Source: Phytophthora quininea
Taxonomy: Eukaryota; Oomycota; Peronosporomycetes; Peronosporales; Peronosporaceae
NCBI GenBank assembly: GCA_011947345.1
Contig: JAAVTG010000388.1
Span: forward strand, 60,604-124,603
Length of the DNA: 64,000 nt
Direction of reading: 5' to 3'
A program made the position numbers and the translations under genes. Of this stretch, positions 1,058-23,165 are shown piece by piece (the stretch's first letter is position 1; every line of letters begins with the position of its first letter). The notes beneath the pieces were generated by a model, which made no database searches, had not been told where the DNA came from, and was given only the letters and a program-made list of their open reading frames with translations.

Positions 1058-1216
1058 ATGCAGATCATCAAGGTCCTCGTTGTCGCCGTCGTTGTCGTGC
1101 TGGGCATGACGCAAGTCGCCGCCACCAACAACAACCAAGGAACGTTCAACCGCAACCGTCCCAACCCGGCGCCCGTGACGCCTGCGCCAACTCCGGCTGG
1201 AACGGTGTGGCACTAG
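1058..1216 (+). CDS. Short secreted peptide, NPG/YNR family, member A
   Basis: Encodes a 52-aa peptide. Residues 1-22 form a typical signal peptide (MQIIKVLVVAVVVV core, then QVAA), so a ~30-aa cysteine-free product would be released. The core NNQGTFNRNRPNP is a divergent form of the family core ENPGxYNRGY, and the tail is Pro/Thr/Ala-rich. The start is chosen because MQ plus a Lys at position 5 aligns with the other members in this window. A longer frame starts upstream at 905 but would bury the signal sequence. Function is unknown. The product belongs to a family with relatives at 5109, 7114, 8098, 8503, 15227, 15525, 17054, 18287, 19115 and 20585. Confidence 0.65.
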   Translation: MQIIKVLVVAVVVVLGMTQVAATNNNQGTFNRNRPNPAPVTPAPTPAGTVWH

Positions 1217-2448
1217 ATGCCTTGTGGTTCAGTCTGCCTAGCTCGACGCAAGACAACCTACCAGTACTGTTGTCGTCGCTCTAAACAAAACAAATCTACC
1301 CGAGCGTCGACACAAATGCCTAGTTTGCTTCACGCGCATGCCGTGAATTGTTGTTCGTATGGTCCTGCACTTGGTATTATATGCAGATCAAACATCAGAA
1401 ATTGTGTAGAGGATGTCACTACCGCCAAGCACGCAGTGCAAAATACCGTCAGGATTTGCCTTGCAGGGTAAATTGTGATCGTCATCGGTGAGTTCATTTC
1501 TGACCTGCAGCAAATAGCTAAAGAGTTCGAGTAGCAAAGGTTAGGCCACTCACTCCGGGGGCAATCCGTTCCTATTGACTTGCTAGCGTTTTGATCTTGG
1601 TCAGCGCTTTTTCAGCTTTTGCAGGATGCCTGTCAGACTTCCGAGATTTCTTTTGCAGTCCGTATCGCTCTTGCGATTATTTTTTCGCCACCGTAGACTG
1701 CGTTCTCATTCCCAAGTTTCTTCGTTCAACAACAGCCAAGAAAGTTCACCACGGAGCAGTTTTTCAAACGCTGTCTTCAGATGTTTATGGTACGACCACT
1801 ATTAGAAAATGACAACGTAGCGTTAGTTGACAAGGTTGTTAGGACTTGCAATGGACATGCAAGCATCACTCTAGTAAGAACTACTAGCCAATAGCGGTCT
1901 CGGCAAGAATCACGTGAGTGGACAGCGCAGCAGGTAATTTATGACACAGCGAATGCCACCTCGTTCGTTTCGACAAGTGAATGCTCTGGCGCTTTGTTTG
2001 GTGAGCATAGATGATAGTTTGTAGGGCGATAGAACAGTGTTGAGGTGAAACGGAGCGAAATCTACGTTTTTTCAAGGTTTCCCATAGAATGAATCGGTCC
2101 GACTGTATGCTACTCTGAGTTATTGTCTCCGCCAGAGCGAATTAATTGCCGATACGCTTTCCATACACAAGCTACAAACTGGTGCGAAGGTTGAAAGTTC
2201 CTAGGTCTCAAACACACAATAATAAGCCAGACCAAAGCGTATAAGGCACAGTCTCTACCGATCTCAGGAGAATAAATGCCCCCCTAAAAAAATAAAAACT
2301 GTTGCTGTCTTCAGAGACTTCTTCATAGCTCACGGGGCAGGTAAAGCTTTCATTTATTCACCTTAGACTACATAAAATATTGTGCAGCCTTGAAACGTTC
2401 AACCTGCTCATTTCGATTTCAACTTGTGAGACGATCGGCTACCAACAT
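1217..2448. other. Intergenic, no supported gene
   Basis: AT-rich sequence with only short frames. I recognise no domain, repeat or RNA gene here. Confidence 0.4.
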
Positions 2449-3093
2449 TTAAGCAGTCGTCGAGTACGCAGATTTCTGTTTCTTCGCACTCGTAAGCTTC
2501 TTGTCTTCTTGCAATTCTTCTTGTTGTCGTCCTTCCTGGTCTTCACTGGAAGAACCAACATCGCTGGTATTACTGGCCGTGGTCTGGAAAACATCTTCGA
2601 TGTCCGAAGTTGCCTCGTCGTTCTCCAGCGTAGCTTGATAGACCGTCAGTGAGATCTGGCCGAGCGTGTCCATGAAAGTGTTCATGTCTGTCAAGTCACT
2701 GCCAATGACTTTTTCCAGAATGCGTTAGAGCTCGGAGTCCCCGAAGATGCTTCTTAAGGAAAACTTGACACCACTAAAGCTGGCGTCGCTAACATCTTCA
2801 TCTCCGAAAAATCCAGAGCCGTTGAATATGGCCTCCAGTAGGTCAAGTAGAGTGAGTTTGTTCAGGTCTTTGTCCTTGAGCTGGCTCACATCCAAAGCAG
2901 TCGACTCACTGCCATCGCTTCCGCTGCCCAGGTGGATCAAATAGCTGCTTCCAGTCTCGTTTGGTTCGTTGAATGGGTTGTCACAACTGGCGCTATCAGC
3001 CGTTGACACAGCACCTCGAAATTTGCTAGGATGTTTGGCCTGGACGGCGACAACGAATGCAATTGCGAGAACGACAGCGACTGGGAATTTTAT
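2449..3093 (-). pseudogene. Decayed secreted-protein gene (lost start, one internal stop)
   Basis: Read on the minus strand, an open frame begins with a strong signal peptide (KFPVAVVLAIAFVVAVQA, then KHPSKFRG). The codon where ATG is expected is ATA (3091-3093). The frame runs to TAA at 2725-2727 and then continues in the same frame for another 92 codons to 2449. The conserved open frame on both sides suggests an ancestral protein of about 213 aa with an acidic, Ser-rich and Gln/Glu/Lys-rich C-terminal part. The nearest in-frame ATG lies far upstream (3474, or 3264 for a shorter version) and would bury the signal sequence. There is no recognised domain. It is probably a former secreted effector. 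Both lesions are substitutions. Confidence 0.55.
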
Positions 3094-3936
3094 TCGTTTG
3101 TTGTTTGGGGGTGTTGAGATATGAAGAATGAAAACCAGCTTTGAACGAGCAAAAGCAGTGACTATGGACAGGATTGCTTTTATTCCTTCGGTTTTGTTGA
3201 TATTCATTACGAGCAGATTACGGTAATCTCTATCTCCCAAGCGCGGTGAAAATCGATTGGATGTGAATCTGCAATCGACGCGGATGCGGACACAGGAGAG
3301 AAAAATAAGATATTGAATTGCTCTCGCTGCAGCATGACTTTGGTCAATTCTTCGCTGTACAGTGGAGCACACCATCCAAGGCTGATTCACAAGCGGAAAA
3401 TTTTCTGTCAGCAAAGAGGAAAACAAGAGGTACGAGTTTCGAGGAGTGAACGGAATGTCCAACACAGGACACATCGAGAGAAACTATATCAAGGCTTCAG
3501 CACCAAAAGCGGTGCCTTCTTGGTCATTCGTCCCCACATCGACGGAACTATATTGTCTAGTCTAAAGAAATACAAGGCTTCTATAGCAAAAAAACTCATA
3601 AAAACGAAATAGAAGGCCATTACCCCCAAAGTTAATCACTTCAATTTCATACATCGTCAACCAAAGACGAAGCGGCTTGGTCAACAAAGCTTACCATGTA
3701 GGAGAAAAAACTGCTTGCCAAATTCACAACAACAACAAAATGCTTGAGAACCCGGAGCAAAACGCGCGTAAGCCTGAAGTTGTCAAGCAAAAATGGCAGA
3801 GTCAACGACGAGTGATTTCCAAGGAGATCATATACCCACACTAATGGCTCAAGTTCTTCTCCAATCACAATGTTCAATCGATGCTTGTGCTAGAAAATCT
3901 CTTGCAGCCCGTTCAGACGACCAATCCACTAACTCG
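3094..3936. other. Intergenic, no supported gene
   Basis: This is the 5' side of the decayed gene at 2449-3093 and the 3' side of the RxLR-like gene at 3937-4389. I see only short frames and no known element. Confidence 0.35.
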
Positions 3937-4389
3937 TTAATCAACTCCGTTGTTAGTTACGATCCTGTAGAACTTCCCGTACAAGAGGTACCGCTGGTAG
4001 TCTGGGTCCGCCTTCAGCTTGTCAATGTTACCCGACTCCTTGAAGTACTGGCGCGTGAGCGACTCGAGCTTCAATCCGTCCCAGGCATCGTCGGGGGTGT
4101 TTCCTTTCTTGTACCACAGCTTGAAGGTGTCAAACTGCTTCTTGATTTTCGGGTCGGCTGTCAGCATCTTGCTCTTCAGACGGACTTTGGCGCTACGAAA
4201 TGCCTGGTTGTTAAAACCTGTCTCTTCATCTTCAGCGTGGTCGATCTCGTCACTTGACGTTCGTACGTAAGTAGCTGGGGTGAGGTCCTCATTCGACAGG
4301 ATAGCCTGACCAACGTTCTTGGTCGACGTCGCATCGGAACCGGAAAGCACAGCGATGACAGCAGCCAGAACAAGGTGGCAAAGGCGCAT
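3937..4389 (-). CDS. RxLR-like secreted effector candidate with non-canonical motif
   Basis: Encodes 150 aa. Residues 1-20 are a signal peptide (MRLCHLVLAAVIAVLSGSDA). At residues 41-58 the sequence YVRTSSDEIDHAEDEET sits exactly where Phytophthora RxLR-dEER effectors carry RxLR and EER; here RxLR reads TYVR and EER reads EET. The C-terminal half is helical and contains a W-motif-like segment (FKLWYKKGNTPDDAWDGL, residues 89-106) and a Tyr-rich end (YQRYLLYGKFYR), as in WY-fold effectors. The inner ATG at 4389 is chosen over one 12 codons upstream because it opens the signal peptide and lies about 50 bp after a good Inr/FPR promoter. RxLR effectors are secreted and act in host cells; that role is inferred here. 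Confidence 0.7.
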   Translation of the reverse strand: MRLCHLVLAAVIAVLSGSDATSTKNVGQAILSNEDLTPATYVRTSSDEIDHAEDEETGFNNQAFRSAKVRLKSKMLTADPKIKKQFDTFKLWYKKGNTPDDAWDGLKLESLTRQYFKESGNIDKLKADPDYQRYLLYGKFYRIVTNNGVD

Positions 4390-4417
4390 GGTAAGAATTG
4401 AAGGTGTTGGGTGGGTG

Positions 4418-4440
4418 GAAGGCAAAAATTGGAATGACCT
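4418..4440 (-). promoter_or_regulatory. Oomycete Inr/FPR core promoter of the RxLR-like gene
   Basis: On the minus strand the sequence reads GGTCATTCCAATTTTTGCC. This is a close match to the oomycete initiator (TCATTCC) followed by the flanking promoter region, and it ends about 30-50 bp before the ATG at 4389. Confidence 0.6.
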
Positions 4441-4594
4441 GTCACGCTCAATAGGTCCAGCATTTCAAACCTTTTAGGGAAGAGCACTTGTTCCTCATGA
4501 CATTGACTTGAACACTAAGTTGCGTGGTGATGGAGCGCTGGCTTTGCTTGGATGGTGCTTGGAGGCGTATTTGGATGAGTCCGGAAGACGTTCC

Positions 4595-4705
4595 TTGTCA
4601 AGTCTCACCTCGATCTGCCCGCAATCTGGATCTCTCAAACACGAGAATTTGCTGCCATAGCTGCGTCAAAGTTTGCGTCAGTATGACACACCACGCAAAC
4701 TCGGA
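4595..4705. promoter_or_regulatory. Dispersed upstream block with 8-bp inverted repeat
   Basis: GTTTGCGT (4671-4678) and ACGCAAAC (4693-4700) form an 8-bp inverted repeat with a 14-bp spacer. The surrounding ~100 bp matches, in inverted orientation, the block at 11460-11570. Related decayed versions lie at 13950-14085, 18060-18160 and 19940-20060. Here it lies about 410-510 bp upstream of the peptide gene at 5109. A binding site for a dimeric regulator is one possible reading; a shared duplicated promoter segment is another. Confidence 0.4.
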
Positions 4706-4848
4706 TACCTATGCCAGGATCGGCTAACGCTGCCACCACGTGACACGACAGCGAATTGACTAGTTGCCCGCTGGTACGCAATCAACCATTCAGTACGACA
4801 TCCACAGAGCACCGACAGGACTTTGCCAATGCTGTGAATCAAGGAGAT

Positions 4849-4950
4849 TTTGTATTAGTCACGCCGGCGTGCTTACTCCCGGTGCCGAAGATGCTGTTCG
4901 CAAATCTTGGTGACAGCTGTGATTACAAACGTGTACATTAGTAGTCACGT
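4849..4950 (+). promoter_or_regulatory. Paired ATTAGTCAC-type blocks upstream of peptide gene B
   Basis: TTGTATTAGTCAC followed by GCGTGCTTAC (about 4850-4875) and GATTACAAAC..ACATTA..AGTCACGTG (4921-4952) recur almost unchanged, in the same order and spacing, upstream of peptide gene O (20390-20480). The second block also occurs before gene F (11648-11675). Conservation against an otherwise diverged background suggests upstream control elements. Confidence 0.5.
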
Positions 4951-5052
4951 GTGCCTGAACAAAGTGCATGCTATCTCCTGTCGACTCCTTCATAGAAGGA
5001 AAGTGGACTCGTTCGAAGTTCATCCTGCCGAAACCAGCCCACGAGCACTTTG

Positions 5053-5078
5053 TTCATTCCTCAGTTTCATTCGCGGTC
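5053..5078 (+). promoter_or_regulatory. Oomycete Inr/FPR core promoter of peptide gene B
   Basis: TTCATTCCTCAGTTTCATTC matches the oomycete initiator followed by the flanking promoter region. It lies about 35-55 bp before the ATG at 5109, which supports that start. Confidence 0.6.
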
Positions 5079-5108
5079 CGTCGACACCACAAGCAAGCGT
5101 GATCCAAG

Positions 5109-5303
5109 ATGCAGCTCGCCCAAATTCTGCTCGTCGCCGTTGTGGTCGTATTGAGCGCTCAAGTCGGCGCGTATATCCCGGAGAACTCGGGAGTTTACAA
5201 CCGCGGCCGTCCTCGGACCCCAAGGCCCAACAACTCAAATTTCCCGGAGCCGAACCGAGAACATATCCCCGAGAACAGAGGAGTGTACACTCGTCACGCC
5301 TAA
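5109..5303 (+). CDS. Short secreted peptide, member B, with two core repeats
   Basis: Encodes 64 aa. Residues 1-21 are the family signal peptide (MQLAQILLVAVVVV, cleaved near AQVGA). The mature part carries the core twice: IPENSGVYNRGR (about residues 23-34) and IPENRGVYTRHA (53-64), separated by a Pro/Asn-rich linker. It has no cysteine. This is the only member seen with two cores, which suggests that the core is the functional unit and that a precursor could yield more than one peptide. The Inr/FPR at 5053-5078 and paired upstream blocks at 4849-4950 support expression. The proteolytic fate and target are unknown. Confidence 0.75.
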   Translation: MQLAQILLVAVVVVLSAQVGAYIPENSGVYNRGRPRTPRPNNSNFPEPNREHIPENRGVYTRHA

Positions 5304-6740
5304 CGTAAAGTTGGTTTCCTGCTGACTCCTGCAGATTTTAGTTTTCGCGGCACCAACGATAAACGGTTCGACTAACGGAGAAGCTGCCTCGTCGACAACG
5401 ACAGTAGCCTGACCGTAATTGTCTTTGACAAAATCAACATCCAAAAAGATGCCACTCCTTTTGTTGGTGTGTTTTGCTGCTGTGTGACGTCGGGACAAAT
5501 GTAGGTCGATGTCGGGTTTCGTGCTAAGTACACGCGTTGTCGCATCAAAATCGAAGACCAGCTTGTTTTTACGTGGTCCCCGGGCCGGCGGAATAAAATG
5601 GCTGCACGAAGCTCCGAACAGCAAACGCTGCTGTTCGATCTTACATAGCACTTGCACTTAGTTAGTTGATTCAGTTGCTTAACTTGTTTCCTGGTTGTTC
5701 TTATGGTTGGGGGTATTTGCTATTCTGAAATCTGATCTGTTGAATGATGATTGAATTTGAATGGGGTATTTGAATGTGAAGTTAATCATTTCTTTTCTTC
5801 TGGATGTTTTCTGTAGGCCCTCCGCCCGGCAGCCCCCGCAGGGACTCGAACCCCAACCGGAGGGATGAAGTGATGCCCTCGCTTGAAGCCCTCGGTCGTG
5901 GAGTGACGCCCACGGATCAGCCTGAAGTCGGGATACCCGCATATTACGCCCGTACCTGCTCGTAAGTGACGACTGCGGATCAAGCTCAAGTCTCAGGGAG
6001 CGGGAAGCGATGTCCCCGCGAGACGCCCTATACCTTCGCTCGGGAAATGACGACCCCGGGTCGAGCGCACCGCGTCAACGTGACTGTGCAATGAGTGAGT
6101 GGCACCGGTGGAGTGCTGGATTGCCGTTGAGCCTCGTGGAGAAGTCATGGAGCACGATGGAGGCGACGAGTAGGGCCTCGTCGCTCAAGGCAACTCGTGA
6201 TCTAGTGGCATGGGTTGGAACGGATATTAGGACTCGTCAGCGGAGTCTGCTAGCTAGTGCAGTGTTTACTTTGTCTGAATGCTGACCAACAAACCTCACT
6301 CCAAAACGAAGTGAAAGAAGACAGCTCGAACGAACCTGTTTAGGCTCTTACACTAAAAATGTCGTCGTGGACGCAATCGGGTTTGGCCCTCGGACGTCCA
6401 CTCTTGGAGCATTCAGTGCTACGGTCCAGTGGACATTGCATTTTAGCACAAGGTTTGAATATTGCTCAAACTTCGAGGGTCTATTGGTTAGAATAGACGA
6501 CCTTCGTATAGCGGTGACTCCATCTATCCATCGGTTTCCCTGCCTTCCGCCGTTCATAAGTCGACGCATCACATCGAGGAATTTCACCTGTTCTGCTTAA
6601 ATGGGCCTGGTAGGTTTAAATTCTGAGAGTCTTCATATAGTGGAATATTTAACTCGATCGAACGCAAGAAAAATTCGATCGTCAACCTTAGAGCTTCAAA
6701 GCGGAAATCACCTCTATCAGAGGACCTACCGAGCCGAATG
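5304..6740. other. Intergenic, diverged repetitive-looking sequence
   Basis: GC-rich 5810-6250 holds degenerate internal repetition (for example GGATCAGCCTGAAGTC and GGATCAAGCTCAAGTC about 70 bp apart) and looks like part of an old dispersed repeat, but I cannot name it. I see no credible gene. A fragment resembling a tRNA T-arm around 5830-5850 was considered and rejected. Confidence 0.3.
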
Positions 6741-6819
6741 CCTCGACAAGTTTGAGCGCAATTTTATAATCTTGCACACTACTCTAATGCTTTTCAACCT
6801 CATTCTCTGCTTGAAGGTG
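6741..6819 (+). repeat. 79-bp inverted repeat, left copy
   Basis: Pairs with 7588-7666 on the other strand at about 90 % identity. The two copies sit immediately outside the left arm (6820-7586) of the large inverted duplication, so that arm is bracketed like cargo between terminal inverted repeats. I saw no clear target-site duplication at 6741 or 7666. Confidence 0.6.
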
Positions 6820-7052
6820 CAGTGCAGAGCCATCGTTCTCGTCGTCGCTGTCTGAGTATTAAAGCTCCAGACCCACCAACGGCCAACATAATGAAGATGG
6901 TGCTCGGCCAATCAACAAACATTGGAGCAATGACTACGGCCTTTATGCTGCAAATCACAGCGAAGAATAAAGCCGCATGCTTGCGGCTTCATCAACATTG
7001 ATCGCGTGCTGCATTCAAATGTTTAAGCAGGGTTTGCTGCCAGCTTCACTGC

Positions 7053-7072
7053 TCTTCATTCCTCAACGTTCG
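7053..7072 (+). promoter_or_regulatory. Inr-type core promoter of peptide gene C
   Basis: CTTCATTCCTCAACGTTCGC contains the oomycete initiator TCATTCC and lies about 40-60 bp before the ATG at 7114. The identical element for gene D lies at about 8286-8305 on the minus strand. Confidence 0.55.
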
Positions 7073-7113
7073 CATCGCCACCGACCTCAAGCAACAAGCA
7101 GAAATTCGTCAAG

Positions 7114-7260
7114 ATGCAGTTCATTAAGGCGTTCTTCCTTGCCATTGTCGTCGTGCTCGGCGTGACCCAAGCCAGTGGGGAAAGTACTGCTCGAGGTGAA
7201 AACCCAGGCATTTACAATCGCGGTTACAAGCCTGGAAGCGATACTGGGGCCATCAATTGA
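7114..7260 (+). CDS. Short secreted peptide, member C
   Basis: Encodes 48 aa. The signal peptide is MQFIKAFFLAIVVVLGVTQA and the mature part is about 27 aa with the canonical core ENPGIYNRGY (residues 29-38) and a Gly/Asp tail. There is no cysteine. It lies inside the left arm of the inverted duplication and is identical at protein level to member D (8098-8244), which it faces tail to tail. It is too short for most gene finders. The Inr at 7053-7072 fixes the start. Biological role unknown. Confidence 0.75.
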   Translation: MQFIKAFFLAIVVVLGVTQASGESTARGENPGIYNRGYKPGSDTGAIN

Positions 7261-7587
7261 GAGTCCAACTCCGTAGCTTTGAAAGTTTGAAGCGATTAAC
7301 CCGGATAATCAATGGTCTTCGATGCCGTCCGAAAAGCATTGTGTTACCTTTGTGGAATTACATGCTTGAACAGTACTTGCCATGGCAGCTCGCTCTTGTC
7401 GTATTTTTAAGCTTAACTACTAGCCCATTCCTCGATGAAACACGGAACTAAAGTCGCCAAAATTCATCACGACCTCCTTGATCGTTCAGTGCCAACATTC
7501 GTGAGAATTCGATCCAACAGAATTCTCAATTACGAAGACCAGTGAACAGTACATGCGATTTAGGGTAGTCTATCGACGAAAGAAAAA

Positions 7588-7666
7588 CAACTTTAAGCAA
7601 AGAATGAGGTTGAAAAGCGTTAGAGAAGTGTGCAAGATTATAAAGTTGCGCTCAAGCTTGTCGAGG
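7588..7666 (-). repeat. 79-bp inverted repeat, right copy
   Basis: Inverted partner of 6741-6819, lying one base inside the spacer next to the left arm. The remainder of the spacer (7667-7770) shows no gene. The 15-bp string TAACACAACGCTTTT at the inner edge of the right arm also occurs at 8012-8026, a microhomology that could mark a template switch. Confidence 0.55.
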
Positions 7667-7770
7667 TTTGCACACTGGCTAGGATATTTTCCGCATTCAA
7701 CAGAGCGGACTCAAACTCTCAAACACCTCGCCGTCCGTAGATGCCAACTGTGCCAACAGTAACACAACGC

Positions 7771-8538
7771 TTTTCTTTCGTCGATAGACTACCCTAAATC
7801 GCATGTACTGTTCACTGGTCTTCGTAATTGAGAATTCTGTTGGATCGAATTCTCACGAATGTTGGCACTGAACGATCAAGGAGGTCGTGATGAATTTTGG
7901 CGACTTTAGTTCCGTGTTTCATCGAGGAATGGGCTAGTAGTTAAGCTTAAAAAATACGACAAGAGCGAGCTGCCATGGCAAGTACTGTTCAAGCATGTAA
8001 TTCCACAAAGGTAACACAACGCTTTTCGGACGGCATCGAAGACCATTGATTATCCGGGTTAATCGCTTCAAACTTTCAAAGCTACGGAGTTGGACTCTCA
8101 ATTGATGGCCCCAGTATCGCTTCCAGGCTTGTAACCGCGATTGTAAATGCCTGGGTTTTCACCTCGAGCAGTACTTTCCCCACTGGCTTGGGTCACGCCG
8201 AGCACGACGACAATGGCAAGGAAGAACGCCTTAATGAACTGCATCTTGACGAATTTCTGCTTGTTGCTTGAGGTCGGTGGCGATGCGAACGTTGAGGAAT
8301 GAAGAGCAGTGAAGCTGGCAGCAAACCCTGCTTAAACATTTGAATGCAGCACGCGATCAATGTTGATGAAGCCGCAAGCATGCGGCTTTATTCTTCGCTG
8401 TGATTTGCAGCATAAAGGCCGTAGTCATTGCTCCAATGTTTGTTGATTGGCCGAGCACCATCTTCATTATGTTGGCCGTTGGTGGGTCTGAAGCTTTAAT
8501 ACTCAAACAGCGACGACGAGAACGATGGCTCTGCACTG
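7771..8538 (-). repeat. Right arm of inverted duplication
   Basis: Partner of 6820-7586 across a 184-bp spacer. This arm is continuous with the complete peptide gene E (8503-8664), so it probably represents the original arrangement and the left arm the copy. Confidence 0.85.
8098..8244 (-). CDS. Short secreted peptide, member D (duplicate of C)
   Basis: Encodes the same 48-aa precursor as 7114-7260, with signal peptide and core ENPGIYNRGY, on the opposite strand. Its promoter region is also duplicated intact, so two identical expression units point at each other across the palindrome. Convergent transcription could give double-stranded RNA from the spacer; this is inference only. Confidence 0.75.
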   Translation of the reverse strand: MQFIKAFFLAIVVVLGVTQASGESTARGENPGIYNRGYKPGSDTGAIN

Positions 8539-8664
8539 GTGCGTCGGGTTGTAACCACGGTTGAACTGTCCCGGATTTTCGTCGATGGTCTTGCGAACGT
8601 TGGCGTCGACTTGAACACTCAGAACAACCATGACACCGACAAAAAGAATATTGGTGATCTGCAT
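8503..8664 (-). CDS. Short secreted peptide, member E
   Basis: Encodes 53 aa. The signal peptide is MQITNILFVGVMVVLSVQVDA, followed by a ~32-aa mature part with core DENPGQFNRGYNP (residues 28-40). It then has an unusual C-terminal extension HQCRAIVLVVAV that contains the only cysteine and is hydrophobic. The extension lies inside the right arm of the inverted duplication, and the same extension, without the gene, starts the left arm at 6820. The tail may therefore be a recent fusion, or the original tail may have been read out of the neighbouring sequence. An Inr-like CTCCATTCAACTCAAACC lies about 20-40 bp upstream. Confidence 0.65.
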   Translation of the reverse strand: MQITNILFVGVMVVLSVQVDANVRKTIDENPGQFNRGYNPTHQCRAIVLVVAV

Positions 8665-8779
8665 CTCGGCTTACGTGTTGGCGGGTTTGAGTTGAATGGA
8701 GATGTTTCTCGTTGGAGACCAGTGACGACACTTTCGTTGAAGCTCTTGTGCCATGGTCAAAGCTGGCTTTGTTAGGTTG

Positions 8780-11787: not shown

Positions 11788-11883
11788 ATGCAACTCGCCA
11801 AGATTCTGATCTGCGCCGTCGTGGCTATACTGAGCGTTCACGATGTCCCGATCACGCCACAACCCAGCATCAGTTCGAAGTAA
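11788..11883 (+). CDS. Truncated secreted peptide, member F (core missing)
   Basis: Encodes 31 aa. It has a full family signal peptide (MQLAKILICAVVAILSV), then only about 14 residues with no NPGxYNR core, ending PQPSISSK. The tail resembles that of the relic at 12386-12487 (SPSISD), so an internal deletion seems to have removed the core while keeping the frame. The promoter blocks upstream are intact. It is probably a non-functional remnant, but it is still a translatable secreted micropeptide. Confidence 0.5.
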   Translation: MQLAKILICAVVAILSVHDVPITPQPSISSK

Positions 11884-12385: not shown

Positions 12386-12487
12386 TTAATCGCTGATGCT
12401 GGGACTTGGAGCACGGTAGTATTGTCCTGGGTTCTCCCGGATATAACCGTTGCTTGAAGCACTCATTACAGTGTACAGCCACGACAT
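12386..12487 (-). pseudogene. Peptide-family relic, member G
   Basis: The minus strand preserves the core YIRENPGQYYRAP followed by a Ser/Pro tail and TAA at 12386-12388. The upstream DNA still matches the signal-peptide region of member F (GTCGTGGCTG-type string) but out of frame, and no MQ start survives. A 33-codon frame from ATG 12487 exists but encodes no signal peptide. I call it a pseudogene. Confidence 0.5.
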
Positions 12488-12762: not shown

Positions 12763-12864
12763 ATGCAGTTTCTCAAGACCATCGTCGTCGCTCTGGTTGC
12801 CATGGCGGCCATGACAACAATCACCGTCGACGCCAAGGCTATGCGTGCGGAAGTCCAGTACTAA
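12763..12864 (+). CDS. Short secreted peptide, member H (minimal)
   Basis: Encodes 33 aa: signal peptide MQFLKTIVVALVAMAAMTTITVDA and a mature remainder of only about nine residues (KAMRAEVQY). The signal peptide is closest to members L, M and O (MAMA, VDA, AKA strings), but the QSPYNR core is absent. A good Inr/FPR (TTTTCATTCCCGAATTCACC, 12706-12725) precedes it. It may be a truncated copy or a very small secreted peptide. Confidence 0.45.
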   Translation: MQFLKTIVVALVAMAAMTTITVDAKAMRAEVQY

Positions 12865-13739: not shown

Positions 13740-13910
13740 TTACAAAAGCCAATCGAAGATGCCAAGCTGACGCTCGCCGTCGTGTGCTGGAGGACGAGGC
13801 ACTTGTTCATCTTTTCGAAGTTGCTTGGGCGGAGGAGGCGTCGCCGTTTCAGCCGAAATTGCGACGAAGAGCGTCACCACACTGAAAGCTAGTACGGAAG
13901 CGAAGTGCAT
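13740..13910 (-). CDS. Small secreted Pro-rich protein (second family), intact copy
   Basis: Encodes 56 aa. Signal peptide MHFASVLAFSVVTLFVAISA is followed by a Pro-rich, charged mature part (ETATPPPPKQ, then PRPPAHDGERQ, ending GIFDWLL). No family is recognised. The stop codon overlaps a perfect splice donor (TTTTGTAAGT), and after it an alternative frame codes for Pro/Gly and EKEPEDPIFGF-like sequence that also exists in the paralogue at 19740. The true protein may therefore be longer by splicing, or the stop may come from a one-base deletion. It shares its upstream block with the other genes of the array. Confidence 0.55.
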   Translation of the reverse strand: MHFASVLAFSVVTLFVAISAETATPPPPKQLRKDEQVPRPPAHDGERQLGIFDWLL

Positions 13911-13949
13911 AGGGTCGATGTCGATGGGAGTGAAGCCGAGGAAATTGCA

Positions 13950-14085
13950 GAGTGAGGCCGAACGAACCGAAAAGAGCAATTGGGCAGATCCTGCACAGCT
14001 TCCACCAGTATCCGCAGAGGAGTTCCGTGGCACATTCAACTTGGAGATGTCACACTGACGCAGGCATTGACACAGCCATGACAAC
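13950..14085 (-). promoter_or_regulatory. Shared upstream block of the 13740 gene
   Basis: GCAGATCCTGCACAGCTTCC and the following ACTGACGCAGGCATTGACA correspond to the blocks at 11460-11570 and 19940-20060. The GTTTGCGT half of the inverted repeat is decayed here. Confidence 0.35.
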
Positions 14086-14975: not shown

Positions 14976-15226
14976 GTCTTTTAAAAACCATCCTATCCAT
15001 AGCAAGCTATCATTCCATCATTGCACACACAGCACCTTGTACAGCTGTGCCACGAGCACCGACGACGCATCTTTTCCTTCTCCCATGCTACACCTAAAAC
15101 AAATATTTATATTGATTGTGAAAGTGCACAGCTCTACCCACTGGAGCGAGTGCCTTTTTCATCCAAGTGTCATCTAGCGCAACCCAAGCGTTAACTGAAT
15201 TATCGCAGTCCTTATTTTCAGCCAAG

Positions 15227-15369
15227 ATGCAGCTCTAGATTCTGCGCGTCGCTGTCGTGGCTGTGGTGCTTCAGTGAGCACCTATATCCCGGACAACCCA
15301 GGACAGTTCGACCGCGGCTATGACCATTCGACTCCAATGCCCAGCATGTGTAGTGAGGTATTTTCTTGA
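15227..15369 (+). pseudogene. Peptide-family relic, member J
   Basis: The start MQL is followed at once by TAG (15236-15238), and the signal-peptide region then loses frame relative to the core. In the second frame the core TYIPDNPGQFDRGY is perfectly legible and ends at TGA 15367-15369. The leader matches member B most closely. There are two independent lesions, so it is a pseudogene. Confidence 0.7.
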
Positions 15370-15524: not shown

Positions 15525-15785
15525 ATGTTCAGGAGAGGCAATAATCATCGCATCGAGCAAAGGCACAAGTTCGTGCCGCTCCTCTCATTCTCCAATTTCG
15601 CAGGAACCATCAACACTTTCCAGAAACAAGCAGTAATACAGTTTGTCAAGCGATTCTCACTCGTCATTATCTTCGTTCTCGGTTTGGTTCAAGTCAGTGC
15701 CGAGGCCAACGACCAAGGAGAAAACCCAGGGGCATACCACCGCGGCTACCAGCAAACCGAAAGTCAGGCCGGCAACCTTCACTAA
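15525..15785 (+). pseudogene. Peptide-family member K with ATG changed to ATA
   Basis: The 49-codon peptide frame is fully open: signal-like IQFVKRFSLVIIFVLGLVQV, core ENPGAYHRGY, tail SQAGNLH. The position of the initiator is ATA (15636-15638), where the paralogue N has ATG. An in-frame ATG at 15525 would add 37 residues and bury the signal peptide. In both K and N the leader is open upstream in the same frame because it is duplicated sequence. The Inr/FPR (CTCTCATTCTCCAATTTCG, 15582-15600) is intact and lies downstream of the ATG at 15525, so that ATG is unlikely to be in the mRNA. Probably silenced unless a non-AUG start is used. Confidence 0.6.
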
Positions 15786-16103: not shown

Positions 16104-16850
16104 AACTTGGCTTTGATCCGCCAGAAAATAATACTTATCCCGGAACTCATGCACCACATGTGGACGACACGAACGTAACTCTCACGGATAGATAGCTTAT
16201 CATCTTAAGACGAGAAATCCGCTAAACAGTTAATCAATTCAGTTTCCTCCTCCGCCTCGAGTCGTTGCGCATTGACAGGATAGTTCTTAAGTTTCAACAT
16301 CCAAGTGATTCGTGGCGACATCGTCATGAGCGAAAGAAAATGTTGAGTACTGTCGGTAGTCATATTCACGCCCACTATGACAACGCGCACTTCGATAAAC
16401 TCCCTCATGGGCGAGTATACTTTCTTATTATTATGGGATATTGAGTTACTATCCACGTAGATATTCCTACCGTGGAATATACCCTTTCTTCATTCCAAAA
16501 TTCATCTTGAATACCACCAGCCACGATGAACGAAAAACCGAGGTGGCAGTCAGTACGATACCGCGGTGGTGGTCCTCTATTATTTGTTATCTTTAACTAA
16601 TAGATTCCTGATACCTCTGTACGCTCTGCCTAATGCTTCCTGTTTGTTTCACTTTTGTCTTGGGATGCCGTGTTCCGTGTCTCTAGTCAATACGATACCG
16701 TGAAGAGCACAAGCGCCAGTAAACGAATCATCGTTTACATTGTGGCGGTTGTAGCGTAGTTTATTTTATCGAGACTAATGGGGGATACAACAGCTCATAA
16801 ACGACAAATAATCTCGACTACACACACACAAACAAGACCCATTTCTAGTC
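16104..16850. other. Intergenic, no supported gene
   Basis: A minus-strand 83-codon frame (16205-16456) lacks domain or promoter support. I see nothing else. Confidence 0.3.
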
Positions 16851-17000
16851 TTCACCCATTGTTGATTGTTGATAGCGTTATGTAGTCGTGGTTCGCGATG
16901 TGACAGCGCTAATTACTGTGCAGAGAATGCGGAGTTCAGTAGATTTTTCCTCATCCCTGCCATTCATCCAAACTCAAGCGATCAAACGTGCTTGGGCATT

Positions 17001-17020
17001 TCATTTCCGAATTCGACTCA
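17001..17020 (+). promoter_or_regulatory. Inr/FPR core promoter of peptide gene L
   Basis: TCATTTCCGAATTCGACTCA lies about 35-55 bp before the ATG at 17054. The same position in M (18239-18257) and O (20521-20540) carries TTTCATTTCCGAATTTGAC and CTTTCATTTCTGCATTTGAC. Confidence 0.5.
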
Positions 17021-17053
17021 GGACAGCAACACCTTCTACTCCAAGATCCCACG

Positions 17054-17191
17054 ATGCAGATGTCCAAGCAACTCGTCGTCATTTGCGTTGTCATGGCCAT
17101 GGCAATGATCAACGCGAAGGCGAAGGAGCACCAAAGCCCTTGCAATCGCGTGAATCCGACCCGCGTTGAACTTCGACTCGAGACTTCCTAG
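17054..17191 (+). CDS. Short secreted peptide, QSPYNR subfamily, member L
   Basis: Encodes 45 aa. The signal peptide is MQMSKQLVVICVVMAMAMINA and the mature part KAKEHQSPCNRVNPTRV and a diverged C-terminal end. It belongs with M (18287) and O (20585), which share signal, core and a ~500-bp flanking unit. Here the core Tyr is Cys, and the C-terminal Gly/Ser/Lys tail of M and O is replaced, probably through a local frameshift. It is plausibly functional, but this is the weakest of the three. Confidence 0.6.
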   Translation: MQMSKQLVVICVVMAMAMINAKAKEHQSPCNRVNPTRVELRLETS

Positions 17192-18238
17192 TCGAAATCC
17201 GACAAAAATGGCCTTTCATCAATAGTCAAAGCAAATGCAAATGAGCCAACTTGGTAGTAAATAATGTCCGTGCGTTGTTGCCATTGTGTCCTGGTTCACA
17301 GGATGCCACGAATTGCCAACGAGTTGCAATCTCACCCTCGGTTCTTTAAGAGCTGCCGTTACTACCAGAATGTTAAACCAAGAATGCTCCTGCAATGCAT
17401 GTTTCCAATCTTGTATTCAAAACTATTGCTATGGTATAATTTTGTTATAGGCTCCTGTGATTTCTACTCTTGAATCAAACCGACGTTAACGAGCACAAAT
17501 ACCTTAACGATGTGAATTGGAGAATGAAGAAGTAGAACGAATATGTGAAAATGGACATACCGGTACTTCTCTTCGATGCAAAGATTGTCGGGTTTTACGG
17601 ACATGCCTGTAGATATATACAATTATTTTATTGGCAAGCGGTAGCCTAAATATTTAGGAGCAGTAGGAATAGTAAGGTAGTCTATTGAACGCTGTTCGTT
17701 AATAGCCTCCAAGGTAGATTTTTTTCAATCGATAGCTAAAAGCCATTGAGAAAGATAGGTGGCACTGGTTTGTGCGTCAAACCCAGACGTCTGCGTTAAC
17801 TCCGGCTAATACTGTATGGAAGTTCTCTTCACTATGTCTCAAGCCCGCTACGCACGATTTCGAAAATACAAAATAATAAGAGGAGGTGGCTTTAACAACG
17901 GCAAAACCCACGAAAACTGGCATGTTTGTATACTGCTCTAGAACCTCATCCTGGAGTCTTCTTCGTCGGTCTCGTACAAATGTGGAGTACCAGGAGGTGG
18001 GATCGATTGCCTTTCAAAATCAAGCGGTCGGAGCTTCCAAGCTCATGCTCGACGTCGTAGGTGCAGTGTTAACATCTTCTGAAAGTTGGCAGCATAGCTA
18101 CCAGCGGTATCGGCACATTCAATTTGGGTGATTCGTACTTGACAACAAACACGAGGGAGATTACGAAAAACGTAATCCGGTAGGCTCATCCATCCTACTT
18201 TTTCAGGCTGCGTAAATGCTCCGTCAACTGCCTAGACT
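17192..18238. other. Spacer of duplicated peptide unit
   Basis: The first ~200 bp match the sequence after M (18431-18640) and after O (20729-20900), for example GCAAATGCAAAT and TTGGTAGYAAA strings, so about 500-bp units were duplicated. Around 18060-18160 is a decayed copy of the upstream block found at 11460. No gene seen. Confidence 0.4.
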
Positions 18239-18286
18239 TTCATTTCCGAATTTGACTGCTCCAACTCAAGCCACCAAGACCCCTCC

Positions 18287-18430
18287 ATGCAGATTTCCAA
18301 GCTTCTCGTCGTCATAGTCGTTGCCGTGCTGGCCATGGCGATGGTCGACGCGAGGGTGCTAGAGAACCGAAGCCCTTACAACCGCGGGAATCCGACCCCG
18401 AGCTCCGACTCGAGCAAACACCGTGGCTAG
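18287..18430 (+). CDS. Short secreted peptide, QSPYNR subfamily, member M
   Basis: Encodes 47 aa. The signal peptide is MQISKLLVVIVVAVLAMAMVDA and the mature ~25 aa contains NRSPYNRGNPTP and a Ser/Lys/Gly tail ending KHRG. There is no cysteine. The SPYNRGNP core links the two subfamilies because it shares YNRG with members B, C and N. The Inr/FPR lies at 18239-18257. Function unknown. Confidence 0.7.
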   Translation: MQISKLLVVIVVAVLAMAMVDARVLENRSPYNRGNPTPSSDSSKHRG

Positions 18431-19114
18431 ACTTCTAAGGCGAAATTCGGAGGCAACATTGGGTCAACCAAAAGTACGCCAGAAAGTAAACCAAAGCCAA
18501 TGCAAATTCAGCGTCTTGGTAGCAAAACCGGTATGTAAGTTGTTGCTTTATGCCCTACTATGACTTGCTCCACAATTCCAACCGTCAGTCCTTTCGGAGC
18601 TATCGTGACACTACTGGAATTTTAACCTAAGATTCCCTGAAAAGCTAGAAGGGCGTTGGGGAGTAGCTCTTCGCTGCGGAATTTGGGATGGGAACGATAA
18701 GAGAGCGAGATGTTAGGCGAGCTGTATCTTCGTGGACGTTCAGGAAAGACCGTAGGAAGAGTGTTGTTGAGCCAAACACCAAGCGAAGCCGGCGTTTTAT
18801 TCACGACAAAGGGTTGATGGCATATTGGATCGGTCCATGTTCCTGGGCAGCAGCGGTGGCACCTTTCTTATCCATCAGTCAATATTCCTTATTTCCGATA
18901 GGAAATCCCGTCGGCAGCGTGGCGCGCTCAATTCATTAGGAAAATAAGTAGCAGACAGATGAGTTTTAGTTCTCTTCGAAATGAAAAATTGCTACACGTA
19001 GTCGATAAAACATATAGTAGGCAGTGTTAATGTGGCGAAAAGATTTTCTTTTTCTTGAAAACTATTACCATTCTCATTGCTTGCCACTGGCTAGGCAGAG
19101 GTTTTCAGTGTCTC
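18431..19114. other. Intergenic, no supported gene
   Basis: Contains the 3' half of the duplicated unit and then sequence without recognisable features. Minus-strand frames around 19074-19361 are shadows of the gene at 19115-19264. Confidence 0.3.
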
Positions 19115-19264
19115 CTAGTGGAGGCCGCCGGCCTGGCTTTCGGTTCGCTGATAGCCGCGGTTGTAGACCCCTGGGTTTTCTCCTCGGCCGTTGGCTTCGG
19201 CGCCGACTTGAACCAAACCGAGAACGGCGATAATGGCGAGCGAGAATCCCTTCACGAACTGCAT
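19115..19264 (-). CDS. Short secreted peptide, member N
   Basis: Encodes 49 aa. The signal peptide is MQFVKGFSLAIIAVLGLVQVGAEA and the mature part carries NGRGENPGVYNRGYQR followed by a TESQAGGLH tail. There is no cysteine. It is the intact inverted paralogue of K (15525-15785), with homology extending at least 250 bp upstream on both copies. Upstream on the minus strand, CTCATTCTCCAATTTTC (19302-19318) is a near-perfect Inr/FPR. This is one of the cleanest members and a good reference for the family. Confidence 0.8.
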   Translation of the reverse strand: MQFVKGFSLAIIAVLGLVQVGAEANGRGENPGVYNRGYQRTESQAGGLH

Positions 19265-19299
19265 TGTTGCTTGGTACTGGAAGTTGTTGATGATACCAA

Positions 19300-19319
19300 G
19301 AAAATTGGAGAATGAGAGA
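19300..19319 (-). promoter_or_regulatory. Inr/FPR core promoter of peptide gene N
   Basis: Minus-strand CTCTCATTCTCCAATTTTCT fits the oomycete Inr plus FPR consensus and lies about 36-55 bp upstream of the ATG at 19264. Confidence 0.65.
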
Positions 19320-19739
19320 AGCGGCACGAGCTTTGCGTTTGTTCGATGCGGCGATAATCACCTCTGGTGAACTTTGCTAGCTGCCGTAAACAGTATACAG
19401 TGTTGTCGTGATGCCAAGGGAGCATTGATGTGATCGTCACCATAGCTAAGGTGATGTAAATAATGTTCTTGGCATCACGTCAACAAGTATGACTCTGCTT
19501 CGATACGGAATTTGTTAAAATTTATCTCTATCCGCACGTCAATACTGGTCGGCTTGGAACCCTTTCCATTTCCTCATTGCAGCCCAAGCACGATAAAAAG
19601 GCATGAGGAAGTGCCATTTATCATTAACAAAACATTTCCAGAAATGCCGTCATTGTTTATTGCGGAGTGTGCGAGCTAGTGACACTAGAACCCGAGGATC
19701 GGGTCGTCTGGATCTTCCTCATGGATTTATGGCGGTGGT

Positions 19740-19920
19740 GCTGTAGGGCATTTAAAAAGCCAATGGAAGATGCCAAGCTGACACCCGCTGTCGAGTACTG
19801 GAGGAGGTGGCATTTGTTCATCCTGTCAAGCTTCTGAGCGGAGGAGATGTCGCCGTGCCCGTCATCATTGCGACCAAACTGAAAGCATATCCGAAGCAAA
19901 GTGCATGAGTGAGGTCGATG
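19740..19920 (-). pseudogene. Paralogue of the 13740 Pro-rich secreted gene, frameshifted
   Basis: Direct repeat of 13740-13910 with its flanks. The downstream half matches (Q-M-P-P-P-P-V-L, then a QLGIFHWLF stretch and a Pro-rich end), but frames differ between the signal-peptide region and the C-terminal half, and the ATG of the first copy is not preserved in a usable frame. Unlike the first copy, the frame here passes the position of the GTAAGT/TAA stop and ends in a Pro run. Confidence 0.5.
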
Positions 19921-20389
19921 GAACTCCAATTGAGGCTGGGTGAGTTGAAAGCTGCCGGTCCTGCACAGCTTCCAACGATTTCTGCAAAGGCGTTGCGTGC
20001 ACAATTCGGATACCGTTATGTCATACAGATTCAGGCCTTGACAGTGACTAGACCACTTCAACAACAACTTCACGAGCGAGATTACGGGCAGATGAACAAC
20101 AAGACATAGAACACCACATCGATTGAGAAGCCGGTTGATTCAAATGAATACGTCTTCAAAGCAATCCTAACAAAACCGGTATTGTATCATCGTGCGCGCA
20201 GCACAGACCCATTTCTATCTGAGACCGAGTCCACCACATCTTTCTAACACTGCTCTGCATACCTTTTCAGTCGACGCGTAGCTTGTACTGACGGTTGAAG
20301 TCAACTCTAACATTTGGCAAAACAGCTAAACCGTGCCTTCAATTCGACGCACAGCGCCAACGACACCAAGGATTTGTTAACTGGCGTAT

Positions 20390-20540
20390 TTGTATTAGTC
20401 ACTTCAGCGTGTTTACGGACAGCGTTGAAGCTGTTGCTCGCCACCCCATTGATTACAAGCTTGCACATTATTAGTCACTCAAACTGAGCGAATGCTCAGT
20501 CAGAGCGCTCAACTGCTTGGCTTTCATTTCTGCATTTGAC
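20390..20540 (+). promoter_or_regulatory. Upstream blocks and Inr of peptide gene O
   Basis: TTTGTATTAGTCAC plus GCGTGTTTAC (20390-20415) and GATTACAAGCTTGCACATTA with AGTCAC (20451-20478) repeat the paired blocks before gene B with matching spacing. CTTTCATTTCTGCATTTGAC (20521-20540) is the Inr-like element about 45-65 bp before the ATG at 20585. Confidence 0.5.
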
Positions 20541-20584
20541 TGCGGACACCAACACACTTCCAATTCAAGCTAAAAGACCCCAAG

Positions 20585-20728
20585 ATGCAGATGTTCAAGC
20601 TTCTCGTCGTCACTCTCGTTGCCTTGGCGAGCGTGACAATGGTCGACGCGGCGGCGAAAGAGCACCAAAGCCCTTACAACCGCGTGAATCCTTCCCCTCC
20701 GGGGGGCAACAGCAAAAACCGTGGCTAG
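20585..20728 (+). CDS. Short secreted peptide, QSPYNR subfamily, member O
   Basis: Encodes 47 aa. The signal peptide is MQMFKLLVVTLVALASVTMVDA and the mature ~25 aa contains KEHQSPYNRVNPSPPGG and ends SKNRG. There is no cysteine. Complete upstream blocks and Inr are present. It is closest to L and M. Role unknown; a secreted signalling or host-directed peptide is possible but untested. Confidence 0.75.
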   Translation: MQMFKLLVVTLVALASVTMVDAAAKEHQSPYNRVNPSPPGGNSKNRG

Positions 20729-20996
20729 GCTTACCCGTCAAAATCCGGAGGCAGCATTAGGTCAACACAGTTCGAAGTTCTGTACTCCAGAAAAGAAATA
20801 CAAGCAATGCAAATTCACCGCCTCGGTAGCAATTAAAGTCCGTACATTGTTGCCTTTGCAGTATATTTCACCAGTCATGACTTCCTTACGAGCTACATCC
20901 AACTGTCATTTTTTTCCGGATAGTTGAACGTTGGGCATCCCACTTGCAGCAGCAACACGGCAAAGCTCTCCCGGAGCCGTCAAATTCCGTTAAGAC

Positions 20997-21383
20997 ATTC
21001 AGACCGCCAAGACTCTCGTCGTTGTCGCCGTCACCACACTGTCCACGGCAGCAGGAAATGCTGCTGAGAACCAAAGAAACAACAACAAGCATCCTTCAGG
21101 GACATCGATAATTTTGTCTAATAAAGCTGTTAAGTCAGCACGCGCAAGGCACCCAAACATTTTGAGCAACAACAAAAGTGAGATAGCTGAACACGACTTT
21201 TTGTCGGCAGGCGCTACTGCAAACTGTTTTACTTCACGGGATTCGGACATTGTAGATGCATTGGCGTGGACCAGGCTGAGTACGGCGATGATACCGATCA
21301 CGACGATCTTGGTGGTGACACAAAGCAAACTGAAGAAAAGTACAGGATCTTGCCTGGGACTGCTAAATCTCTTGCGTTCGTAA
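20997..21383 (+). pseudogene. Secreted-protein gene with ATG changed to ATT
   Basis: A 128-codon open frame begins at ATT (20997-20999) with a signal-like IQTAKTLVVVAVTTLSTAAG and AAENQRNNNKHP. The 5' part is paralogous to the intact gene at 22178 (shared ACTCTCGTCGT and CAGGAAATG strings), where the start is ATG. The remaining frame is basic and then hydrophobic. A minus-strand frame (20999-21571) also shows a signal-like stretch opposite this one, without a start in place. Both cannot be original; I favour the plus strand because of the paralogue. Confidence 0.4.
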
Positions 21384-22119
21384 CATGGCGCAACTCTCGC
21401 CGTTGCTGTCGTTGTAGTGCCTGGTGTGATATAAGTCATTCGGCAGTTTTGTGGTAGCATGATATCCTTGCTAGCTACAGTAGCAGCAACAAAGTGAATT
21501 GCACCACAAAATATAACAGAAGAGACGCTTCTTGGCTCTTTGTTCATTGCTGAGTTCGTGTACTTTACCAAAAAAAAATATCGCCGTCACATATACACCA
21601 AACAAGGGGTACCAGCAACTCAAAAACGTATACATGAATCATTTCATCAGACACTGATGGCAAAGTACATTGTTCATTGACGGATTGTTTACAGTCGCTT
21701 TCTGCTTGTTAATGTCGTTTGTCGGACTCGAGTTTTCTCGTTATCGGACTCCTTTATTCACTAAAAATCAATTTGTTAGAGATATGCTGTTTCGAGCGAC
21801 CACAGTTGCTGCAGTCTTGTCCAGCATGGTGGCGACGCCGGTGAGGTTTGTTTTGATCAATGATTTTCACATGGACCATCTGCGAGATTAGTGGTCGAAG
21901 ATGTCCAAAGTACTAGACATCCCCGAAATCTGTACTTCAACCAATTGCAAATTGTTAATCTCATTGGAAATCGCAGCAACTCGAAAGAAAAAAATTAAAT
22001 CGCTGACGACTCGCGCAAAATGTATTCTGTGGCTTATTATCAAAATTGAGCTGACAACGAAAAAAAAGCAGTGTTCATTCTCCCTAGAAACCAAGATCGG
22101 TAAAGCCCCACTCTATGGA
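21384..22119. other. Intergenic, no supported gene
   Basis: AT-rich sequence with small frames. I see no known element until the promoter at 22120. Confidence 0.35.
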
Positions 22120-22177
22120 TCTCATTCCTGAATTCGGCTCGCAGCTCTCAAAGGTCCCGAAAGCCCAACAAACCGAC

Positions 22178-22588
22178 ATGAAGACTGCTAACACTCTCGT
22201 CGTCATTGTTCTACTAAGCGTGACGACAGGAAATGTGGATGCCACGAAAGCTAGCAATCTGAAAAGGATAGCCATACTGAAGTCGGGCCCGGAGTCAACA
22301 ACGGCCTCCACAAGAAAACGCAGCAAAGTCAACACGAATGCGCTTTCGTCGGCAAAAGGTGCGTGGCGTCTGGTGCGAGGTCGCAGGTCAAACCCGCCGT
22401 CTTTACAATGCGATCTAGTCGTGTATCTTTGGTTGTTGAACCACCAGCAAGACATGGCATTTGTGACCAAAGAACAAGAATTACCACAAAACCAACAGGC
22501 CAGACAATTTCTCAATTCTGGCTCGCGACAGCGGCTTTCTTCACTATGTAAGTCATTTCCACTGACGCTTTCTCCACTCAAATATTAA
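22178..22588 (+). CDS. Small secreted basic protein
   Basis: Encodes 136 aa. The signal peptide is MKTANTLVVIVLLSVTTGNVDA and the mature part TKASNLKRIAILKSG onwards is rich in Lys, Arg, Ser and Thr, with a single Cys pair near the middle and end. No domain is recognised and there is no clear RxLR or EER. The start at 22178 is preferred over the in-frame ATG at 22115 because an Inr/FPR (TCTCATTCCTGAATTCGGC, 22120-22138) lies between them and the shorter form opens the signal peptide. Candidate apoplastic or cytoplasmic effector, by context. Confidence 0.5.
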   Translation: MKTANTLVVIVLLSVTTGNVDATKASNLKRIAILKSGPESTTASTRKRSKVNTNALSSAKGAWRLVRGRRSNPPSLQCDLVVYLWLLNHQQDMAFVTKEQELPQNQQARQFLNSGSRQRLSSLCKSFPLTLSPLKY

Positions 22589-23041
22589 GCTGTCAAATCC
22601 GCAGATTCCGCCATTTGAGATGGCCACGGCCAAGAAGGAGAAATTGCTCTCACGTGCATCCATTCACTTCAAACGAAATATCGACGCTTCACCAAAGGCA
22701 TCGACTGATAATCATGATAGCTAATGGTGATCGCTGGATGTAGTCGCTCTACAAGAAGCATGCACTCTTATCAACAATGAGACCCCTGGGCCGATAGTAC
22801 GTATTCCCACGTGTAGGGTTTATTGTACGGTGGAAAGTCACGTTGGGCATCATGATAATATCATGACATTATGATCGCCAACGGCACATTCTCGGCCGCA
22901 TTGGGTCTTCATAGAGCACCCAGTTCAAACGATAGAACCAAAAGAAAATCGCCAGATACAACATGAAGTCGAGACAGTGGATCTGCATGTCGTTAGAATC
23001 GCGTCTTGATTCCGAGTTAACGCATCTTGCATCCCACCGCT
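22589..23041. other. Intergenic, no supported gene
   Basis: I see no gene or repeat that I can support. Confidence 0.35.
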
Positions 23042-23165
23042 CTACACGCGTCCGTGCGGTAGGTCTCCGAAGTCGCTGGGCTCTGGGGTTGGACTATTGG
23101 CACGGTTAAAACGTCCAGGGTTCTCGCTGGTAATACTGTGAACGCTCAGCTTTGGAGAGTTGCAT
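23042..23165 (-). pseudogene. Peptide-family relic, member Q, signal peptide deleted
   Basis: On the minus strand the start MQLSK (from 23165) is followed directly by the end of the signal region, so about 12 codons of hydrophobic core are missing and the frame is broken. In the second frame the core SENPGRFNRANSPTPEPS is intact and ends at TAG (23042-23044). An Inr-like TTCATTTCTCGATTCTCG (23193-23210) survives upstream. Pseudogene. Confidence 0.65.

Follow-up and report, generated by a model that had tools for sequence, protein, structure and literature searches.

Described peptides and the Phytophthora quininea locus

In the portions of the literature available to us, mimics of peptide hormones are described from nematodes (CLE, CEP, IDA, PSY, and RALF mimics), as are arbuscular-mycorrhizal CLE-like mimics (PMC12825991, PMC11538016), SCR proteins are a listed class of the Phytophthora palmivora secretome (PMC5427549), and Phytophthora zoospore fluid is reported to hold heat-stable infection-promoting signals and other, aggregation signals that are neither autoinducer 2 (AI-2) nor acyl homoserine lactones (AHL) (PMC3016323). 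Here, we describe an array of short precursor genes in a stretch of 64,000 nucleotides of Phytophthora quininea (C361:60604-124603, hereafter the window; genome assembly of 87.2 Mb in 993 contigs), whose products combine a signal peptide, a core of the form E-N-P-G-x-[YF]-N-R, and a variable tail. Like the hormone mimics, as far as the available parts of these accounts describe them, the precursors have a signal peptide, a short variable part, and a short kept motif at one end, and they diverge around that motif. The core appears, to our knowledge, to match none of the CLE, CEP, IDA, PSY, PIP, or RALF motifs.

The original prediction for this locus knew of no described oomycete family with such a core, and our Pfam, PDB, and open full-text searches found no match. 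In Pfam, 20 members searched at E ≤ 1 recovered no family beyond chance; the best matches, Penaeidin (E = 0.019) and Metchnikowin (E = 0.086), each involved 1 of 15 members and are at chance level. A profile search of PDB gave two matches (E = 0.095 and 1.5) that were taken as chance, and two mature peptides searched there at E ≤ 10 gave none. A search with one member gave 43 pattern matches in viral contigs and 592 in contigs of prokaryote genomes, none of them a confirmed relative. Eleven distinct core strings had no match in the full text of 5.39 million open papers, no oomycete peptide family with such a core was seen among the titles and abstract openings listed by broader literature searches, and the letters NPG, PGVY, YNR, and SPYN were not found in the first 300,000 of the 467,095 characters of a plant peptide hormone review. 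Families of small secreted peptides are a known kind; the present family and its core appear to be undescribed.

The family shares with the PcF/SCR proteins only the general character of small secreted oomycete proteins, and membership in that class is ruled out: none of the 16 mature parts analyzed has more than one cysteine, in agreement with the predicted difference from the Cys-rich PcF type. RXLR effectors are secreted, as is predicted for our peptides, and occur in the same genome, where the RXLR effector profile gave 144 matches at E ≤ 0.001 among the 150 of 299 candidates scored, a result that marks the genome as that of a Phytophthora- or downy-mildew-like oomycete. The mature part of our peptides differs in being only 21 to 43 residues long, and RXLR membership is ruled out, with no match to PF16810 for 20 members at E ≤ 1. 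Membership in the trypsin-like (S1) proteases is ruled out by the same Pfam search.

A family of short precursors beyond chance

By combining the open reading frame (ORF) list, a motif scan, and a profile, we counted 16 copies or relics of one short-precursor family between window positions 478 and 23266 (Table 1). Nine are intact precursors of 45 to 64 residues with an ATG, a signal peptide, and a core; of the others, one bears a core but has no ATG at the family start, two have the signal peptide and lack a core, and four are relics in which a core is present. The profile was seeded with nine window members and iterated over 10,152 open frames drawn from 254 kb of sequence and four short loci. 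In its final form, it recovered 60 stretches at E ≤ 1 and picked 14 of the 16 window copies at E < 0.01; the relic at 12386 scored 0.065, and that at 478 to 687 was found by the motif scan only. An extra weak match on the minus strand at 21002 to 21586 (E = 0.018) was left out of the 16. At E ≤ 0.01, shuffled frames gave no stretch, versus 57 in the real frames, and in the 87-Mb genome the pattern ENPGx[YF]NR has 20 matches, versus none for its reversal; because of these two results, the family is beyond chance, and chance open frames are ruled out as its source. A tandem-repeat artifact is also ruled out, as the first 26 kb contain a single 15-base tandem repeat (positions 163 to 193). The array is thus confirmed as one real family of short precursors with a signal peptide, a core, and a variable tail.

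The original prediction of at least 15 genes and relics in about 22 kb with a shared signal peptide and core is therefore borne out by the count, and the core is indeed readable in broken copies, being present in the relics at 12386 to 12487 (minus strand), 15199 to 15366 (plus strand), and 23045 to 23266 (minus strand). The array lies where it was placed but is wider than predicted, extending upstream on the same contig (C361) and recurring on a second one (C3). Its members are mostly cysteine free, as had been stated, with the qualification that the intact precursors at 8664 and 17054 have one cysteine each.

The anatomy of the precursors was compared in 16 of them, with the boundary between leader and mature part set by eye as a predicted cleavage point. 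The leader has 19 to 23 hydrophobic residues, the last of which is Ala or Gly; between it and the core E-N-P-G-x-[YF]-N-R lie 0 to 10 residues, and the tail follows the core. One subclade has E-[HN]-[QR]-S-P-[YC]-N-R-x-N-P as its core and another N-N-Q-G-T-F-N-R, and the ENPG and SPYNR forms are bridged, since relatives on two other contigs read ENPGKYNRTNP (C558) and EHPGLYNRNNP (C402). The mature parts are hydrophilic and near neutral, with a grand average of hydropathy (GRAVY) of -0.39 to -1.85, a net charge of 0 to +3, and a Pro content of 4 to 20%; 14 lack cysteine and 2 have one each. A single-sequence model of the member at 19264 has one helix (residues 2 to 26) and is unstructured after it, with block-mean predicted local distance difference test (pLDDT) values of 59 and 57 beyond residue 30; all that this model supports is that the mature part is probably not folded. 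With cleavage placed by eye, the parts are those of a peptide-hormone-like precursor, namely, a signal peptide, a short kept motif, and a variable remainder.

Upstream of the window, C361 carries core copies from ~31 kb and copies of the family signal peptide from ~17 kb. The 20 genome matches to ENPGx[YF]NR are distributed over C361 (nine), C3 (four), and C236, C369, C402, C558, C836, C837, and C898 (one each); 14 were judged to share their frame with an ATG and signal peptide and the other six to be broken copies. The pattern QSPYNRxNP has 3 matches in the genome and E[NK][PS]GVY[NK]R has 12, with none for either reversed pattern, and the latter adds C512, C552, and C588, so that the core is found on ten contigs besides C361 and C3. 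The genes on C558 and on C552/C512 are intact lone genes with a different leader (MKLSVAIV, MKLIIAIA, and MKFIIAIA) and the core at the C terminus. Frames are broken in the copies on C236, C836, and C837, and a relative on C201 has kept the leader and lost the core.

Two further sets of precursors with leaders of this type were observed. Two small precursors at C570:389114-389851 have a family-type leader and initiator and are coreless. A coreless sister beginning MQ[LF]TKTLVV, with the tail ATRADRYSQPMTRPRQPRD, occurs as an inverted pair with one amino acid change on both C361 (17569-17781 and 26794-27006) and C3 (177966-178178 and 180310-180522), and it possibly represents a second family of peptides that uses this leader.

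Core constraint between paralogs and a shared promoter element

We compared paralogs by raw ratios of nonsynonymous to synonymous proportions (pN/pS), using one representative per paralog (11 from the ENPG clade, 16 overall). Within the ENPG clade, the eight core codons have a ratio of 0.21 (pS, 0.70; pN, 0.145), versus 0.78 for leader codons 2 to 16 and 0.76 for the six post-core codons; over all 16 representatives, the corresponding values are 0.33, 0.81, and 0.77. Arg8 is invariant in the 16, Glu1 and Asn7 are each present in 15, and position 5 takes eight different residues. Among the outcomes that the original prediction had named as speaking against it were a dN/dS near 1 across the core and an absence of homologues outside the locus; neither was found, given the ENPG-clade core ratio and the ten further contigs of the same genome that carry the core.

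The genes also share an initiator (INR). The pattern TCAYTYYNCAWTT, with up to two mismatches, starts at -40 to -75 in 38 of 41 upstream stretches versus 2.4% of 3,000 sampled ATGs. With the search definitions of the available part of PMC3599244 (INR, YCAYTYY; flanking promoter region [FPR], MWTTTNC), INR is found at -40 to -80 in 35 of the 41 distinct stretches versus 5.3% of 7,729 ATGs, a control drawn from the same DNA with the family genes included. Both elements are present with at most one mismatch in 23 of 41 (versus 0.8%) and exactly in 5 of 41 (versus 0.2%). These stretches are related by descent and are not independent events, and no initiator was found upstream of the gene at 8664 or of a pair with the leader MQLVNIVVAA on C402/C369. 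In P. infestans, genes with INR and FPR are reported to show more variation between life stages and an enrichment in infection genes such as those for RXLR proteins and elicitins, as well as in wall-degrading functions (PMC3599244).

Copy turnover and neighboring genes

C3 carries a stretch that matches the C361 array, mostly in reverse orientation. Alignment gave 19 blocks of 1 kb or more, which are 87 to 95% identical (15 of them above 91%), and the two contigs are read here as putative haplotypes or homeologues. A small inverted duplication at window positions 6820 to 8538 (arms of 589 and 183 bases, 99 to 100% alike) holds the copies at 7114 and 8244, which are twins within it; both arms map to one stretch of C3, and the duplication is therefore absent from that contig. 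A larger inverted duplication, in pieces, spans approximately C361:40.2-66.5 kb, its right arm corresponding to window positions 1 to 5869; its arms are 98 to 99% alike, and a simple folded-back read is disfavored because the arms are less than 100% alike. The inverted duplications may be either real rearrangements or assembly errors. No alleles of the copies at 5109 and 8664 were found in the 130 kb of C3 read, and the C3 counterpart of the copy at 15636 has an internal stop. Judged from the two contigs, copies have turned over between them.

Table 1. Copies and relics of the short-precursor family in the window
Coordinates	Strand	Class	Description	Detection
478..687	-	relic	open frame ending in ENPGQYSRALHRN, without family signal peptide	motif scan, ORF list; profile missed
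1058..1216	+	intact precursor, 52 aa	divergent core NNQGTFNRN, Pro-rich tail; initiator TCACTCTTCAATT at -61	
5109..5303	+	intact precursor, 64 aa	two cores, ENSGVYNRG and ENRGVYTRH; initiator at -55	
7114..7260	+	intact precursor, 48 aa	core ENPGIYNRG; left arm of small inverted duplication	
8098..8244	-	intact precursor, 48 aa	protein identical to that at 7114; right arm of small inverted duplication	
8503..8664	-	intact precursor, 53 aa	core ENPGQFNRG; final codons within inverted-repeat arm; no initiator found	
11788..11883	+	coreless	family signal peptide and initiator; identical protein on C3	
12386..12487	-	relic	core ENPGQYYR, without family signal peptide	profile E 0.065
12763..12864	+	coreless	family-like signal peptide and initiator	
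15199..15366	+	relic	core DNPGQFDRG, without in-frame family signal peptide	motif scan, profile
15636..15785	+	no family ATG	core ENPGAYHRG; no ATG at family start, in-frame ATG at 15525	
17054..17191	+	intact precursor, 45 aa	core EHQSPCNRVNP, one cysteine	
18287..18430	+	intact precursor, 47 aa	core ENRSPYNRGNP	
19115..19264	-	intact precursor, 49 aa	core ENPGVYNRG	
20585..20728	+	intact precursor, 47 aa	core EHQSPYNRVNP; C3 counterpart without family start	
23045..23266	-	relic	core ENPGRFNRA, without in-frame family signal peptide	

Inside the array, an RXLR-like gene (window positions 3937 to 4389, minus strand) codes for a secreted protein of 150 amino acids (aa) that scores 24.7 bits, below the profile cutoff of 26.9. 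Two pairs of direct repeats (13744 to 14029 and 19755 to 19999), 85% and 78% alike, lie ~6 kb apart, and one copy overlaps a short ORF on the minus strand (13740 to 13910) with a signal-peptide-like start; this is perhaps a second duplicated small secreted gene. Outside the array, adjoining genes at 31137 to 31904 (plus strand) and 33032 to 34006 (minus strand) encode heat shock factor (HSF)-type DNA-binding domains.

Proposed function and alternatives

As read from the DNA, there is a family with a defined anatomy, constraint on the core among paralogs, a shared initiator, one core found with different signal peptides, and turnover of copies. Our best reading is that the products are secreted linear peptide ligands with the core as the recognized part, more likely host than self directed, to which we assign a probability of roughly 0.45; self-signaling is ranked next, followed by antimicrobial action and relic status. 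In the favored scheme, the arrays would be real, transcribed genes of a birth-and-death family, and the signal peptide would take each precursor into the secretory pathway and thus to secretion. Removal of the leader near the predicted cleavage point would leave a hydrophilic, unstructured peptide of ~21 to 43 residues; recognition would depend on the ENPGx[YF]NRx(NP) core of this peptide, and its tail would be free to vary. The peptide would then be an extracellular ligand in the manner of short peptide hormones, its receiver being more probably the plant host (apoplast) than the oomycete. We lean toward a plant receiver because of the copy turnover, the promoter class, and the RXLR-like gene inside the array.

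The secreted-peptide interpretation of the original prediction is partly supported, by the recurrence of the family, the paralog core constraint, and the shared initiator, but several observations weigh against it and against the ligand reading. Relics, coreless copies, and the copy without the family ATG make up seven of the 16 in the window. A conserved core with fast-changing tails, as predicted, is seen among the ENPG-clade paralogs but not clearly in the SPYNR clade, whose four copies have a pN/pS of 0.65 for the core and 2.14 for the leader. Between C361 and C3 (14 pairs, among them eleven with a recognized core, one whose tail is shifted, and one whose core is degenerate), pN/pS is 0.44 in the core (12 nonsynonymous and 7 synonymous differences), 0.76 and 0.77 in the codons preceding and following it, and 0.70 over all codons, so that constraint between the two contigs is weak. 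The paralog representatives were also picked partly by their core. A leader-only profile is a partial answer to this, having been trained on 15 members, most of them core bearing; it gave 44 matches at E ≤ 0.05, 24 of which have a core within the next 28 residues, and the core expression occurs in 2 of 10,670 background windows. Finally, the proposed host direction draws only on turnover, promoter class, and neighborhood.

The same anatomy would serve density, developmental, or mating signals passed among the organism's own cells, for example zoospores, and perceived by its own surface receptors. A core constrained across paralogs fits a conserved self receptor, and the peptides would be extracellular, like the Phytophthora zoospore signals, which are neither AI-2 nor AHL; yet nothing in the available part of PMC3016323 ties zoospore activity to a peptide, and the fast turnover of copies between C361 and C3 is less expected of a self signal. 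We consider self-signaling unlikely, if still the leading alternative to a host-directed ligand. That the peptides are antimicrobials, perhaps proline-rich ones, directed at competing microbes is improbable: the Pro/Arg-rich stretches of some members (such as that at 5109) and the weak Penaeidin and Metchnikowin matches point that way, but those matches are at chance level, the GRAVY values are -0.39 to -1.85, the single model (of the member at 19264) has no amphipathic helix, and an eight-residue core is kept while the tails vary freely. Of the roles originally suggested, antimicrobial action of the cationic kind looks less likely given the net charge of 0 to +3 in all 16 mature parts, which, together with their Pro content, is not that of a strongly cationic Pro/Arg-rich peptide.

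Comparably improbable is a formerly functional family that now consists mostly of duplicated relics, in which the core could still be read owing to the young age of the copies. It would account for the four relics, the copy without the family ATG, and the two coreless copies in the window, for the broken copies on C236, C836, and C837 and the coreless relative on C201, for the ratio of 0.70 over all codons between C361 and C3, and for that of ~0.8 in leader and tail among paralogs. It sits poorly with a pS of 0.70 versus a pN of 0.145 in the ENPG-clade core, with the initiator kept in 38 of 41 stretches, and with the intact lone genes on C558, C552, and C512. The C-terminal part of S1 proteases has a motif like PGVYTRV, which PGVYNR, PGVYKR, and GVYTR briefly resemble. 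That the peptides are a piece of such proteases or a decoy for them is nevertheless highly improbable, as no Pfam trypsin match was found among 15 plus 5 members (E ≤ 1), two mature peptides had no PDB match (E ≤ 10), and core position 5 takes 8 residues in 16 copies.

Stated more generally, and tentatively, these may be undescribed oomycete peptide ligands, linear and unfolded, of ~20 to 25 residues with the core E-[NHK]-[PQ]-[GS]-x-[YF]-[NK]-R, encoded both in arrays of genes smaller than gene finders usually accept and by lone genes with a C-terminal core and perceived by a surface receptor of the plant or the oomycete. A core this short and uniform lends itself to peptidomics, to receptor screening, and to searching oomycete genomes for small ORFs, and a synthetic peptide of ~20 residues would be a direct test of plant perception or of the identity of a Phytophthora self signal. 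If these genes are expressed, Phytophthora-type oomycetes would secrete short linear peptides that would go unnoticed under the size limits of gene finders.

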